64,000 nt of DNA from Martelella mediterranea (GTDB taxonomy: Bacteria; Pseudomonadota; Alphaproteobacteria; Rhizobiales; Rhizobiaceae): assembly GCF_004342225.1 (NCBI RefSeq), contig NZ_SMAR01000008.1, positions 62,001 to 126,000 of the forward strand. Reading direction: 5' to 3'. Under the pieces are notes generated by a model. It was not told the origin of the DNA. It worked only from the letters and a program-made list of their open reading frames with translations, and did no database searches. Positions 29,279 to 34,145 of this stretch are shown one piece after another. The translations under genes and the position numbers were made by a program. Positions within the stretch are counted from its first letter, which is position 1. The number at the start of each line of letters is the position of its first letter.

Positions 29279-31885
29279 ATGGCTGGCGCAACGAATACAC
29301 GCCGACAGACAAGAAGAGCAGTCATCAAGGTTTTCGCCATCCTGATGGCACTTTTCATGATAACGCTTGCTGCCGGTACTGTGATTGGCGGGCTGGCTGT
29401 GCGGGACGCGTTGCGTGCCGAGCGGCGGGCACAGGCTGAAACCCAGCTAGCCGGGTTCGAGAAAGCCCTGCGTACCGTTTTGGGGCAGATCGAAAATCTC
29501 GGCTCGTCAATGGCAGCAAGCCTTGAAGTTGCCGCTCGCAATCAACCGGAACAATTCGGCAGCGATATCAATAAGCTGTTGTCAACGACGCCCTGGATAA
29601 GTGCCGTCATCATTCAGCACGCCGGACAGACGATGACATTTCCGTCAGGTTTCGCGGGTGTTCCCATCGATTTGGAGGCGCAGTCATCTGGTGGATCGTC
29701 AGGCCCTGTCTTTCTCGGTCCTTACACGCTCCAAAATGGCAATGAAGTTCTCGTCTACCGTTTCGCCAACAATGAAAATGTCCTGAATCTTGTCATCGGC
29801 GTTCATCCAATTCTCGAGGCTGTTGGTTTTCTTGAACTCGAACAATGGGCGCAGTTCACGGTAGCAACCGGCTCGGGGCAAAATGCCACCGTCACAGCCT
29901 CAACCGGCTCCGCGGTCTCGCCGGATGCAGAACCGGTTTCGCGACAGTTGACCTCTGCCAATGCAACATGGACGATTCGTCTTTCGCCAAGAGCGCTGGC
30001 CAATGGACCCAATAACTGGCCACTGACACTCAAAACGATCATTATTCTACTGCTGATCGGCTACACGACACCGTTTGTCGGACTTATTATTATGGCGCGC
30101 GCTCACCTTCGCAACAGCCGCCATCTTGAAGACTCCAGAGGCGAGGTCGAAACGCTGTCCAGACAACTGGACGTCGCACTGAAGGCGTCAGAGATCGGGA
30201 TGTGGCAGCACGACGTCGAATCCAACTCCCAGACATGGGATGACCAGATCCTGAAGATTTACGGCCGTGAACGCACAAGAGATCATCAAACATTCGAAGA
30301 ATGGCTGGCCTACCTTCACCCGGATGATCAGCCGCGGTTCCGGCAGTTCAGTTGGAAGGACACGGCCCGCAACAACGGTTTTACCAGCGAATACCGGATT
30401 ATCACGCCAGACGGCACGGAGAAATATATCAGGTCTGCTGGCAATGCTTTTCGCGATGCCAGTGGGCGCCAGCAATTTGTCGGCATCAACTGGGATGTGA
30501 CCGCCGATGTCGCGCTCCAAAAGGAGTTGACCGAAGCCAAGGCCACGGCCGAAGCCAGAAACGCAGATCTGGAAGATGCCTGGCACCAACTGGAAGAAAT
30601 TGCTTATCACGACTCTCTGACAGGTCTACCAAACCGTCGCCAGTTTGAAGAACGTCTGGAAGCCATGCGCGCAACTGGCGCCCTGCTCAACGACACGAAA
30701 ATCATGATCATTGATCTTGATGGCTTTAAATCCATCAATGATACGATGGGGCATTTCTTCGGCGATGATGTGCTTAAATTTGCCGCTCAGACCTTCTCGA
30801 ACCACCTCGCTCCTGAAGACTTTCTCGCCCGTACGGGTGGCGACGAGTTCATAATGATCCTTCCATCGACGACGAATGCTGACCAACTCGCCAGGAGCAT
30901 CATCGACGCTTTCGCCAAACCGGTCGAGATCAACAACCGCCCCTGTCGCATCGGCGCAAGCATCGGGATTGCAAGTGTGCAGGATGCGACAGAGACACCG
31001 GGAAACCTGCTGATCAAGGCCGATATCGCGTTATACGAGGCCAAGAAGCTGGGGCGCGGGCGAACTGTCTTCTTTACCGAAGATCTCAAGATTAAAACGC
31101 TGGCTGGCAAAAAACTGGGAGATGAGCTTCTGGAGGCCATCGACAGGGGGCAGATCACTGCCTTTTTCCAGCCCATCTTTGATATGAATACGATGCATGT
31201 CATCGGCGTTGAGGCTCTGGCGCGCTGGCGGCACCCAGTACGCGGAATTTTGTCCCCAGACAGTTTCATGGAAGCTGCCCAAAGTATTGGCATCATTCGA
31301 AAGATCGATGAGATCATCTTCAATCAGGCTACGGATCTGCTTCGCGACTGCCTGGAGACCGGCGTGAATATTCCAGGCCTGTCGGTCAACGTGTCAGCAG
31401 AACGTTTGCAAATGCCTGAACTCATGGCTCAGGTATCACGTTGTGACCTTCCAAGAGAAAAGCTGCATTTCGAACTTCTGGAATCGATATCATTCGAACA
31501 TGCCGATGACAGCCTTTTGCAGACAATTCAGGAGATCAGAAACAAGGGGATCAGTATCGATCTTGATGATTTCGGGTCCGGCAATGCTTCGCTTGTCGGC
31601 CTGATGAATGTGCGCCCTGACCGCCTCAAGATCGCGCGACAGCTCATTGAACCAATCACAACACAGCCGGAAAGCTCACTCGTCATTCAGACCATTGTGA
31701 ACATAGCGAATTCTCTTGAGATAGAAGTGATTTGCGAAGGGGTCACCAGCGAGGCACATGCAGAAATTCTGAAAAACCTTGGCTGTCATATTGGCCAGGG
31801 CTATTTATTCTCCCGCCCGATGAGCGCAGAGCATTTTATCAACTTCATGAGAAATCAACCGGATTCCCGGCAGAAAGACCACTAA
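29279..31885 (+). CDS. Membrane PAS-GGDEF-EAL protein (cyclic-di-GMP turnover)
   Basis: 868 residues. Helix 1 (about 16-37) and helix 2 (about 247-272) flank a 210-residue periplasmic sensor of unknown type. Then follow a PAS domain (about 296-410), a coiled segment, a GGDEF domain (motif RTGGDEF near residue 520) and an EAL domain (VEALARWRHP near 644, later LDDFGSGNAS, CEGVTSEAH and QGYLFSRP). Both catalytic motifs look complete, so it could make and degrade cyclic-di-GMP, switched by a periplasmic signal. A 262-bp gap separates it from the preceding gene, with no clear ORF. Start: ATG with GGGGAC upstream. Confidence 0.93.
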   Translation: MAGATNTRRQTRRAVIKVFAILMALFMITLAAGTVIGGLAVRDALRAERRAQAETQLAGFEKALRTVLGQIENLGSSMAASLEVAARNQPEQFGSDINKLLSTTPWISAVIIQHAGQTMTFPSGFAGVPIDLEAQSSGGSSGPVFLGPYTLQNGNEVLVYRFANNENVLNLVIGVHPILEAVGFLELEQWAQFTVATGSGQNATVTASTGSAVSPDAEPVSRQLTSANATWTIRLSPRALANGPNNWPLTLKTIIILLLIGYTTPFVGLIIMARAHLRNSRHLEDSRGEVETLSRQLDVALKASEIGMWQHDVESNSQTWDDQILKIYGRERTRDHQTFEEWLAYLHPDDQPRFRQFSWKDTARNNGFTSEYRIITPDGTEKYIRSAGNAFRDASGRQQFVGINWDVTADVALQKELTEAKATAEARNADLEDAWHQLEEIAYHDSLTGLPNRRQFEERLEAMRATGALLNDTKIMIIDLDGFKSINDTMGHFFGDDVLKFAAQTFSNHLAPEDFLARTGGDEFIMILPSTTNADQLARSIIDAFAKPVEINNRPCRIGASIGIASVQDATETPGNLLIKADIALYEAKKLGRGRTVFFTEDLKIKTLAGKKLGDELLEAIDRGQITAFFQPIFDMNTMHVIGVEALARWRHPVRGILSPDSFMEAAQSIGIIRKIDEIIFNQATDLLRDCLETGVNIPGLSVNVSAERLQMPELMAQVSRCDLPREKLHFELLESISFEHADDSLLQTIQEIRNKGISIDLDDFGSGNASLVGLMNVRPDRLKIARQLIEPITTQPESSLVIQTIVNIANSLEIEVICEGVTSEAHAEILKNLGCHIGQGYLFSRPMSAEHFINFMRNQPDSRQKDH

Positions 31886-32036
31886 AGACGCTTATATATA
31901 TGGGTCTTCAGGATGATATGCACAAAATGCATGTCTTATATGACGAGATGACACTCCATTTTTTCGCATTCTGCGTTTATAAAAAAATCAACGAAGCGGC
32001 GAGGCCGCTGAAGCCCGGACTACCGGGTACGAAATT

Positions 32037-32157
32037 CGAAGATGCGTACTCCTCCTCCCAACGCACTTCGATCGGTTGACGACGCTCCTCCTCCCAGTCG
32101 TCGACCAAAGCAAATGACGCTCACCGGATCCTCCTCCCCCGGTGAGCGTTATTTTTT
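32037..32157 (+). ncRNA. Cuckoo-type (CcsR-like) small RNA: three CTCCTCC-loop hairpins
   Basis: Three consecutive hairpins, each holding an anti-Shine-Dalgarno-like run in its loop. SL1, 32037-32070: stem CGAAG(A)TGCGT / ACGCACTTCG, loop ACTCCTCCTCCCA. SL2, 32074-32106: stem GGTTGACGAC / GTCGTCGACC, loop GCTCCTCCTCCCA. SL3, 32117-32149: stem ACGCTCACC / GGTGAGCGT with CCTCCTCCCCC in the loop, followed by a T-run, i.e. an intrinsic terminator. Repeated CCUCCUCCC loops beside DUF1127 genes are the definition of the cuckoo RNAs (CcsR1-4 in Rhodobacter sphaeroides, stress-induced). Two DUF1127 genes lie just downstream. Two more short stems (AGCGGC/GCCGCT, CCCGG/CCGGG) precede SL1 at 31995-32027 and may belong to the same transcript. 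Confidence 0.85.
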
Positions 32158-32378
32158 GTCTTTTCTTCCGGCCAAAACCTCAAATCTTGATCTTAAGCCG
32201 AAGCTGTTTCTCGCCAGCGACAGGCACAACAAAGCTGCCAGTTGCATGCCATGCGCTTAACGCATAGCCGCTTTACCAAGACCCCACTGCCTGCCTCAAA
32301 CAGAATTGCCTATATCAGGTTCAACAGATGATGAAGCGCCGGAACAGTCCGGCAAATCAGTAAACAGGAGAAATAATT
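32150..32378. promoter_or_regulatory. Leader region of the first DUF1127 gene
   Basis: Between the small-RNA terminator and the DUF1127 start. It contains two hairpins, ATGCG-CTTAA-CGCAT (32251-32265) and GCCGGA-ACAG-TCCGGC (32338-32353), the second just ahead of the ribosome site (CAGGAG). No ORF was found and no promoter could be assigned firmly. Confidence 0.35.
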
Positions 32379-32522
32379 ATGGGCGTTGCACGTTCTTTCA
32401 ACAACTGGATCAAGTACCGTCAGACCGTTTCTGAGCTCGACCGTATGTCCGGCCGTGAGCTTGCCGACCTCGGCATCAACCGTGAAGATATCCGCCGCGT
32501 CGCTCGCAAGGCTGCATTCTGA
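32379..32522 (+). CDS. DUF1127 small protein (first copy)
   Basis: 47 residues, Arg-rich, reading MGVARSFNNWIKYRQTVSEL, then DRMSGRELADLGINREDIRR and VARKAAF. This is the full DUF1127 (YjiS-like) pattern of W..YR....L..L...EL.D.GI.R.DI...A. Rhodobacter CcaF1, a relative, binds RNA and affects maturation of the CcsR small RNAs; others affect phosphate and carbon metabolism. AGGAG precedes the ATG. It ends with the terminator at 32566-32596, and the cuckoo-type RNA lies about 220 bp upstream on the same strand. Confidence 0.92.
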   Translation: MGVARSFNNWIKYRQTVSELDRMSGRELADLGINREDIRRVARKAAF

Positions 32523-32565
32523 ACCAGCCTTTCAAGTGACGGCAGGCGCCAGACCTGCATTCAAA

Positions 32566-32596
32566 AGCCCTACGCGCTCTGCGCCGGGCTTTTTTT
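32566..32596 (+). terminator. Terminator of the first DUF1127 gene
   Basis: AGCCC / GGGCT stem with an inner GCGC / GCGC pairing, followed by TTTTTT, about 45 bp after the stop. Confidence 0.8.
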
Positions 32597-32632
32597 GTGC
32601 TCCCTTAAAACAGGACACAAAACAGGCAGAAT

Positions 32633-32680
32633 TGATATGCAGCTCATATTTTATGCATCACCCTGTATAAATGCATATCA
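32633..32680. promoter_or_regulatory. Inverted repeat TGATATGCA - TGCATATCA before the second DUF1127 gene
   Basis: Two perfect 9-bp half sites (32633-32641 and 32672-32680) separated by 30 bp of AT-rich sequence, about 100 bp ahead of the ATG. The arrangement suggests an operator or a looping site; no regulator is assigned. Confidence 0.35.
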
Positions 32681-32775
32681 GTTGCTTAAACTTTGCACTC
32701 CACCTTCATGGCGTTTCTCGATATATGCTTTCGCAAAAGAAAAGTATGAACTTCTAAAAAATCGAGGAAACACCC

Positions 32776-32919
32776 ATGTCCCCCATCCGCCTGACACGGC
32801 AGTGGTTGAGCTACCGTCGCACACGCGCGCAGCTGCGCGACCTGACTGATTACGAACTTAAGGATATCGGCCTGGTCCCTGGCGATATCGAGCGCATCGC
32901 ATCACGCGCTTTTCGTTGA
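32776..32919 (+). CDS. DUF1127 small protein (second copy)
   Basis: 47 residues, MSPIRLTRQWLSYRRTRAQL then RDLTDYELKDIGLVPGDIER and IASRAFR. Same family and length as the first copy, but the sequences differ at most positions outside the core pattern, so this is not a recent duplication. GAGG precedes the ATG. It has its own upstream region (with an inverted repeat) and its own terminator, so the two genes are separately controlled. Confidence 0.92.
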   Translation: MSPIRLTRQWLSYRRTRAQLRDLTDYELKDIGLVPGDIERIASRAFR

Positions 32920-32947
32920 TCACCAAATAAAAGGTTGAATGACTGTC

Positions 32948-32973
32948 AACGGCGCCGAAAGGCGCCGTTTGCA
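32948..32973 (+). terminator. Terminator of the second DUF1127 gene
   Basis: A perfect 9-bp stem AACGGCGCC / GGCGCCGTT capped by GAAA, followed by TGCATTT. The T-tract is imperfect but the hairpin is very stable. Confidence 0.65.
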
Positions 32974-33032
32974 TTTGGGCGTTCGATGATTATGTTGGGC
33001 GCTTTTAAACCAACCGCACAGCAGAATGTTTC

Positions 33033-34145
33033 ATGGACGCTTTCAGCCGCATTACCGACCTTATCAACTCCCTGCCAGCGACCGTCCCTTTTGTCGGACC
33101 GGAAGCGCTCGAACGTCAGACAGGCACTGAAATTCGTGCGCGGATCGGAGCGAATGAAAGCGCTTTCGGACCCGCTCCTTCTGTTGTTGAGGCAACCCGG
33201 CAGGCTGCGGGAGATGTCTGGAAGTACAGTGATTCGGAACATTTCAGCTTCCGCCATAAACTTGCCGAGCATCTGGCCTGCAAGCCTGAGAACATTATGG
33301 TTGGCGAAGGTGTTGATGGTCTGCTTGGCATGACAGCCCGATTGACGATCACTCAGGGCACCCCGGTTGTGATGCCGCTGGGCGGTTATCCCACTTTTGC
33401 ATATCATGTTGACGGTTTTGGCGGTCGTATTGTCACGGTTCCCTATGAAGGAGATCGTGAGAGCATTGATGGCCTGCTCGACTCAGTTCGTAAAAACGAT
33501 GCAACGGTCGTCTACTTCGCCAATCCTGATAATCCGATGGGCAGCTGGTGGAACGAAGACGATGTTGTGCGCTTCGCACAAGCCCTGCCGGAAACCTGTC
33601 TTCTGATCTTGGATGAAGCATATTGTGAATGTGGTCCAGCAGAAGCGTTTCCATCCATTGACCGACTGATCAATATGCCAAATGTGCTGCGTTTCCGTAC
33701 TTTCTCAAAAGCTTACGGCCTTGCAGGCGCGCGCGTGGGCTATGCCATCGGCACCGAAGGTACAATTGCCGCATTCAACAAGATTCGCAATCATTTTGGT
33801 ATGACGCGCCTGAGCATGGTCGCGGCTGAAGCCGCACTTGCCGATCAGGCCTATCTTCAGACAGTGATTGCGCGCATACACGAATCGCGAGCCCAGATTG
33901 GCCGCATTGCTGAAGCAAATGGTTTCAAGGCTTTGCCATCAGCAACCAATTTTGTGGCTGTCGACTGTGGGCGCGACGGCGACTATGCACGTGCCATTGT
34001 GAATAGGCTCGGCGCGCGCGGTGTGTTTATTCGTATGCCGGGCGTTGCACCGCTAAACCGCTGCATTCGCATCAGTGCGGCTCCGAACCGGGAGATGGAA
34101 ATTCTCGCCGAAACCCTGCCGCAGGTCGTTTCTGAGATCGGCTAG
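33033..34145 (+). CDS. PLP-dependent aminotransferase, histidinol-phosphate aminotransferase-like
   Basis: 370 residues, fold type I, class I/II. The PLP lysine lies in RFRTFSKAYGLAGARVGY (about residue 229), ANPDNPMGSWW carries the Asn that contacts the cofactor, and ILDEAYCEC the Asp that pairs with the pyridine nitrogen. The overall pattern is closest by eye to HisC-type enzymes, but second HisC-like copies often act on aromatic or other amino acids, and no histidine gene is nearby. It follows the terminator of the DUF1127 gene and is probably a single-gene unit. Confidence 0.88.
   Translation: MDAFSRITDLINSLPATVPFVGPEALERQTGTEIRARIGANESAFGPAPSVVEATRQAAGDVWKYSDSEHFSFRHKLAEHLACKPENIMVGEGVDGLLGMTARLTITQGTPVVMPLGGYPTFAYHVDGFGGRIVTVPYEGDRESIDGLLDSVRKNDATVVYFANPDNPMGSWWNEDDVVRFAQALPETCLLILDEAYCECGPAEAFPSIDRLINMPNVLRFRTFSKAYGLAGARVGYAIGTEGTIAAFNKIRNHFGMTRLSMVAAEAALADQAYLQTVIARIHESRAQIGRIAEANGFKALPSATNFVAVDCGRDGDYARAIVNRLGARGVFIRMPGVAPLNRCIRISAAPNREMEILAETLPQVVSEIG

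Follow-up and report, generated by a model that had tools for sequence, protein, structure and literature searches.

An ar14-family small RNA with a predicted structured leader and a promoter-like block shared with DUF1127 genes in Martelella mediterranea

The window analysed here, a 64-kb stretch of Martelella mediterranea DNA, contains on its forward strand a three-hairpin small RNA of the ar14 family (32031-32154), in which each hairpin bears an anti-Shine-Dalgarno loop and the third resembles a terminator. It is followed on the same strand, as the original prediction had it, by two genes for DUF1127 proteins of 47 aa each (32379-32522 and 32776-32919), which match PF06568 with 55.8 and 53.3 bits, respectively, against a cut-off of 23.3. 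A PAS-GGDEF-EAL gene (29279-31885), for which four Martelella relatives of 43-50% identity were found, lies directly upstream of the RNA.

By structure and comparison, the RNA is clearly a member of the ar14 (NfeR1-like) family. The covariance model RF02344 gave 101.6 bits in a scan of the window (cut-off 58.8, E 1.4e-17), and the match is of full length, covering model positions 1-123 of 123. The loop strings begin at 32048, 32084 and 32128, one in each hairpin, and CCTCCTCCC occurs only three times on both strands of the 64-kb window, always inside these loops. All three hairpins carry a CUCCUCC-type loop, and the combination that marks ar14, three CCUCCUCCC loops on variable stems, is present. 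Two other families were tried and rejected: CcsR1 (RF02791) reached 34.5 bits against a cut-off of 65.3, and 6C RNA likewise scored under its cut-off. The cuckoo or CcsR type that had been proposed was apt in so far as a CCUCCUCCC-loop RNA is linked to DUF1127 genes, but the family itself is ar14, of which three-hairpin RNAs are already in Rfam.

Folding of positions 31990-32160 gave -77.8 kcal/mol (z = -7.39), and none of 200 dinucleotide shuffles was as stable. Taken singly, each of the three hairpins, as well as the pair of short stems in front of them (31995-32009 and 32013-32028), was more stable than 200 of 200 shuffles. The three CTCCTCC-type hairpins and the two shorter stems described in the original prediction are thus borne out, and the last hairpin, which it took for the terminator, has the shape of an intrinsic terminator and leads into TTATTTTTT. 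A simple terminator scan listed two sites, both on the reverse strand; the third hairpin is absent from its output because the scan takes loops of 3-8 nt and the loop here has 11. Stem conservation, the absence of which had been set beforehand as the outcome that would speak against the prediction, was found in an RNAalifold consensus of 31 ar14 copies (three from the M. mediterranea genome and 28 others, with L037 dropped): 20 of the 21 consensus pairs, located in stems 2 and 3, vary at both positions in ways that preserve pairing. Stem 1 falls outside this consensus and is paired in the Rfam alignment, with one non-standard pair. The loop cores CTCCTCCC, CCTCCTCCC and TCCTCCC, belonging to loops 1, 2 and 3, are invariant throughout the 31 copies from this genome and other genera; in the copy on contig C1 of M. 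mediterranea (L003), the third motif is shortened to TCCTCCC.

Upstream of the RNA, a LysR-type box, TGCACAAAATGCAT (TGCR-N6-GCAT; 31919-31932), and a -10 element, TATAAA (31978-31983), form a promoter-like block. The 13 aligned Martelella orthologues all contain TGC(A/G)-N6-GCAT, CACT, TATA and then TCAAC upstream of the RNA, and the distance from the start of the box to TATA is exactly 59 nt in every one of them. It is on this conservation that the promoter claim rests, since a simple sigma-70 scan of 31880-33040 returned no promoter on the forward strand and one site on the reverse strand (1.3 expected). Transcription would begin at about 31990, which would place the box at -71 to -58 and make the two short stems a 5′ leader (31990-32030); the predicted transcript, leader included, would span about 171 nt (31990-32160). 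Measured from CAAC to the TTCGAAG of hairpin 1, the leader varies among the 13 orthologues in length (46 to 81 nt) and also in sequence, and each leader is more stable than 95-100% of 200 shuffles of its own (z -1.8 to -6.3, mean -3.3). The leader hairpin adjoining ar14 forms in all 13, its stem being CCCGG/CCGGG, CCCG/CGGG or CCCGC/GCGGG. A role in stability or processing would be our guess. The same order of elements, namely box, CACTGCA, a -10-like TACTAT, leader, ar14, box and DUF1127, is seen at two loci of another genus (L137 and L138), where inverted G/C blocks are abundant in the leader.

DUF1127 gene 1 is preceded by a block with the geometry of the sRNA promoter (32252-32314), made up of the box TGCGCTTAACGCAT (32252-32265) and TATA (32311-32314). 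The spacing from box to TATA is 45 nt in both blocks, and these are the only two sites with box-N45-TATA geometry on either strand of the window. A degenerate block can be read from the sequence before DUF1127 gene 2 (32663-32725); the full pattern is unmatched there, and only a GCAT half-site (32673-32676), CACTCCA (32696-32702) and TATA (32722-32725) are in register. At least DUF1127 gene 1 seems to share its on-switch with the ar14 RNA.

The association of this geometry with both kinds of gene extends to the genus. A pattern of box, N44-46 and TATA was found at 88 sites in 13 Martelella genomes, with a spacing of exactly 45 in 82, against 11 sites for the reversed pattern used as a control. 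Of the 88, 52 lie no more than 300 nt upstream of a DUF1127 match and 13 equally close upstream of an ar14 match, 65 in total. The M. mediterranea genome alone, at a looser spacing of 43-48, gave nine sites and the control five, so that the contrast between sites and control comes from the exact spacing and the 13 genomes. The remaining 23 sites have no DUF1127 or ar14 match behind them; 13 of these, one in each genome, have a sequence block in common. A small frame behind the common-block site, looked for in three genomes, is present in M. mediterranea and in G402 and was not found in G397 with the filter used. In M. mediterranea this frame, on contig C14 (L085:1704-1868, about 79003-79167), encodes a 55-aa Arg-rich protein behind the same promoter block; the protein has no Pfam or NCBIfam match, and its middle part looks DUF1127-like by eye. 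One of the other ten unlinked sites was read, that on contig C22 of the same genome, where the box stands upstream of another small Arg-rich frame, likewise lacking a Pfam match. The box is near-identical, over the 64 nt that end with TATA, in C22 (L086:1605-1757) and at G406:C2:308646. Near the starts of contigs C48 and C54 of G397, box and DUF1127 recur as repeated units with a partial ar14 match of 65 nt, which gives the impression of an amplified locus.

As for the regulator, the box points to the LsrB/VtlR type of the LysR family. For NfeR1, LsrB is reported to bind TGCA-N6-GCAT between -72 and about -57 and to act as an activator (PMC10746234), and the sRNA box matches this motif and its distance (about -72 to -57) when counted from the inferred start. 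For abcR1, the LsrB/VtlR box is given as GCAT-N3-TG-N3-T at -61 to -49 (PMC8844928); the five sites checked in the M. mediterranea genome agree with it in position but have only six of its seven fixed bases each. The sRNA and DUF1127 boxes resemble published LsrB/VtlR sites, albeit imperfectly, and the distinct regulatory circuit envisaged originally looks less foreign than proposed, its promoter block being similar to the NfeR1 and abcR1 sites. The genome also contains tandem ar15 (AbcR) genes (L077/L078, C1:148704-149013, reverse strand), with a LysR gene about 480 nt upstream on the same strand. The protein encoded by this gene scores 610.8 bits against PDB 9hh1, the entry deposited with a paper on Agrobacterium tumefaciens LsrB (PMC11975290), and is, judged by sequence, a close relative of Agrobacterium LsrB. 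This LsrB-like protein would be the candidate for binding the sRNA and DUF1127 boxes. What counts against naming LsrB/VtlR as the binder is the agreement in only six of seven bases, together with the 15-base Brucella VtlR motif, for which the window shows agreement only at chance level (10, 10 and 9 of 15, with 103 of 1065 window stretches reaching 10 or more).

An order-wide search of 397 genomes under strict filters found an ar14 match in 159 and a match over the cut-off in 89. M. mediterranea itself has three ar14 copies in three arrangements: the window copy is followed by two DUF1127 genes, the copy on contig C2 has one in front and that on C1 has one on each side. Together, these three loci account for five of the six DUF1127 matches that exceed the cut-off in this genome. 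No DUF1127 gene was found within 1.5 kb upstream of the window copy, and all 13 Martelella orthologues of this copy place the RNA first, with DUF1127 downstream on the same strand. The claim of a gene order unlike that of Rhodobacter therefore stands for the window copy and its orthologues, but a Rhodobacter-like order also exists in the same genome, because the C2 copy follows a DUF1127 gene and the C1 copy lies between two.

In every one of the 13 Martelella genomes, the ar14 stretch has three or more DNA matches. After removal of two upstream pieces from 45 such matches, 43 were left, of which three are partial (65 nt, G397) and two had the ar14 start entered by hand instead of a longer match; a same-strand DUF1127 match lies within 1 kb of all 43 (16 in front, 14 behind and 13 on both sides). 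Outside the genus, the sample consists of 69 copies among the matches listed, namely the best of 29 genomes (L011-L039) and 40 picked by hand, and up to 1.5 kb was examined on each side, less where contig ends cut the locus (L037, L144, L151 and L158). DUF1127 is near 50 of these copies and always on the same strand: 38 have it upstream, no more than 300 nt from the ar14 centre, six downstream within 900 nt, two on both sides and four farther upstream; the other 19 have none within about 1.5 kb. Three ar14 copies in tandem occur at five loci of other genera (L011 of G323, L019, L020, L021 and L023), and two at several further loci.

Since multiple ar14 copies per genome are common, and one of six copies in Sinorhizobium meliloti is reported as reliably detected on northern blots (PMC7143759), we considered whether the window RNA might be a silent copy among paralogues. 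This would sit badly with the loops, third hairpin and promoter block, all of which the 13 Martelella orthologues have retained despite drifted flanks, and we regard it as very improbable. A different alternative is an RNA of the CcsR type whose hairpins are cut apart with the help of the DUF1127 protein and act as three single units. Such maturation is described for Rhodobacter, with the participation of CcaF1 (PMC10253847), several processed forms are described for SmelA075 (PMC3927594), and the other two ar14 copies of M. mediterranea do sit behind DUF1127 genes. The window copy, however, has no such gene within 1.5 kb upstream, has a promoter block of its own and falls well short of the CcsR1 cut-off, and NfeR1 is presented in the literature (PMC8844928 among the sources) as 115 nt long, with three motifs that are redundant; we regard processing of this kind as rather unlikely.

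Candidate targets of the loops were sought in the M. mediterranea genome, where GGGAGGAG-N3-9-ATG has 18 matches (17 sites) and the reversed pattern four. Fourteen of the GGGAGGAG sites open frames of 100 aa or more, some of them cut by the end of the locus, and seven of the 14, as a raw count, encode transporter parts according to Pfam. These are a TctC receptor, three periplasmic binding proteins, two ABC ATPases and one permease; a distance of 2.6 kb on the same strand separates two of them. Predicted pairing of the loops, accessibility being ignored, amounts to -17.1 to -22.5 kcal/mol for seven candidate targets and to a weak -7.4 and -7.7 kcal/mol for the start regions of the two DUF1127 genes, so that control of the neighbouring DUF1127 genes by the loops is not favoured. 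The candidates would agree with the picture of NfeR1, for which the S. meliloti literature gives transporter mRNAs as predicted and partly tested targets.

These pairing energies also bear on the idea that the RNA acts mainly in cis, as a leader or attenuator of the DUF1127 genes downstream, much like the C-rich upstream frame of one such gene in S. meliloti. There, a C-rich leader is reported to control one DUF1127 gene via premature termination (PMC12218461). The constant RNA-first order on the same strand among the 13 orthologues speaks for this idea. A leader of this sort is nevertheless difficult to reconcile with the terminator-like third hairpin, with the separate DUF1127 promoter-like block behind it and with the weak pairing at the DUF1127 starts compared with the candidate targets, and we think it distinctly unlikely.

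The explanation that we favour, with a probability of roughly 0.8, is that an LsrB/VtlR-type regulator turns on the ar14 RNA along with DUF1127 and that the RNA silences transporter mRNAs. In this mechanism, the LysR regulator would activate both the trans-acting ar14 RNA and the neighbouring DUF1127 gene, the latter through a promoter of its own with the same geometry. The transcript, about 171 nt long, would comprise a two-hairpin 5′ leader and three CUCCUCC-loop hairpins. By pairing with purine-rich ribosome sites, the loops would block the translation of mRNAs, many of which would encode transporter components. More tentatively, and with the odds somewhat against it, ar14 may have been uncoupled in Martelella and some relatives from a protein-first operon, a non-coding structured leader replacing the upstream DUF1127 frame. 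Twin LsrB/VtlR-type promoters would then give one coordinated output, a silencing RNA combined with a small protein that binds RNA or PhoR, and the leader would tune the stability or processing of this RNA alone.

What this analysis adds is the layout, in which the RNA comes first and has a predicted structured leader, and in which RNA and DUF1127 have twin promoter-like blocks, although the cuckoo-family literature may already list such orders; no paper listed in the library searched names both NfeR1 and DUF1127. The co-regulation that we favour joins two threads of work that have been reported separately, the activation of an ar14 RNA by LsrB in S. meliloti and that of DUF1127-type genes by VtlR/LsrB in Brucella and Agrobacterium. 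If the shared promoter is real, the association of DUF1127 with CCUCCUCCC RNAs becomes testable as co-regulation and not only as co-transcription.

Among known systems, ar14/NfeR1 of S. meliloti (SmelC397, RF02344) has the same three CCUCCUCCC-loop hairpins with a terminator-like third, and a LysR-type box equally far from the start. NfeR1 is given as 115-122 nt long, about the length of the ar14 model, and would therefore lack the structured 5′ leader of about 40 nt that the Martelella RNA would have in addition. The Martelella copy also differs in the two DUF1127 genes behind it; five stand-alone ar14 copies from other genera (L012-L014, L016 and L018) have none within 1.5 kb. CcsR1-4/ccaF1 of Rhodobacter sphaeroides (RF02791) and CIN1 have in common with it the CCUCCUCCC loops and a linked short DUF1127 gene. 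The linkage of such a gene with a CcsR-like RNA is already published as the CIN1 locus (PMC10253847), and a DUF1127 gene likewise adjoins a CCUCCUCCC RNA in the window. In Rhodobacter, however, the protein gene is described as heading a single operon driven by an RpoHI/RpoHII promoter (PMC10253847), whereas in Martelella the RNA comes first and RNA and DUF1127 gene 1 each have a promoter-like block; the position behind DUF1127 in the same operon that typifies CcsR1 is absent from the window copy, while the C1 and C2 copies do sit behind DUF1127. SmelA075, SmelA099 and the cuckoo RNAs are described as successions of two, three or four hairpins with the same loop motif and variable stems (PMC3927594). 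The Martelella RNA is one of the three-hairpin forms in this wider group, from which no tested feature separates it. In the VtlR/LsrB regulon of Brucella and Agrobacterium, a LysR regulator is likewise reported to activate small DUF1127-type genes and an anti-Shine-Dalgarno RNA. The RNA named there is AbcR, whereas in Martelella ar14 itself adjoins DUF1127 and has a promoter-like block of the same type.
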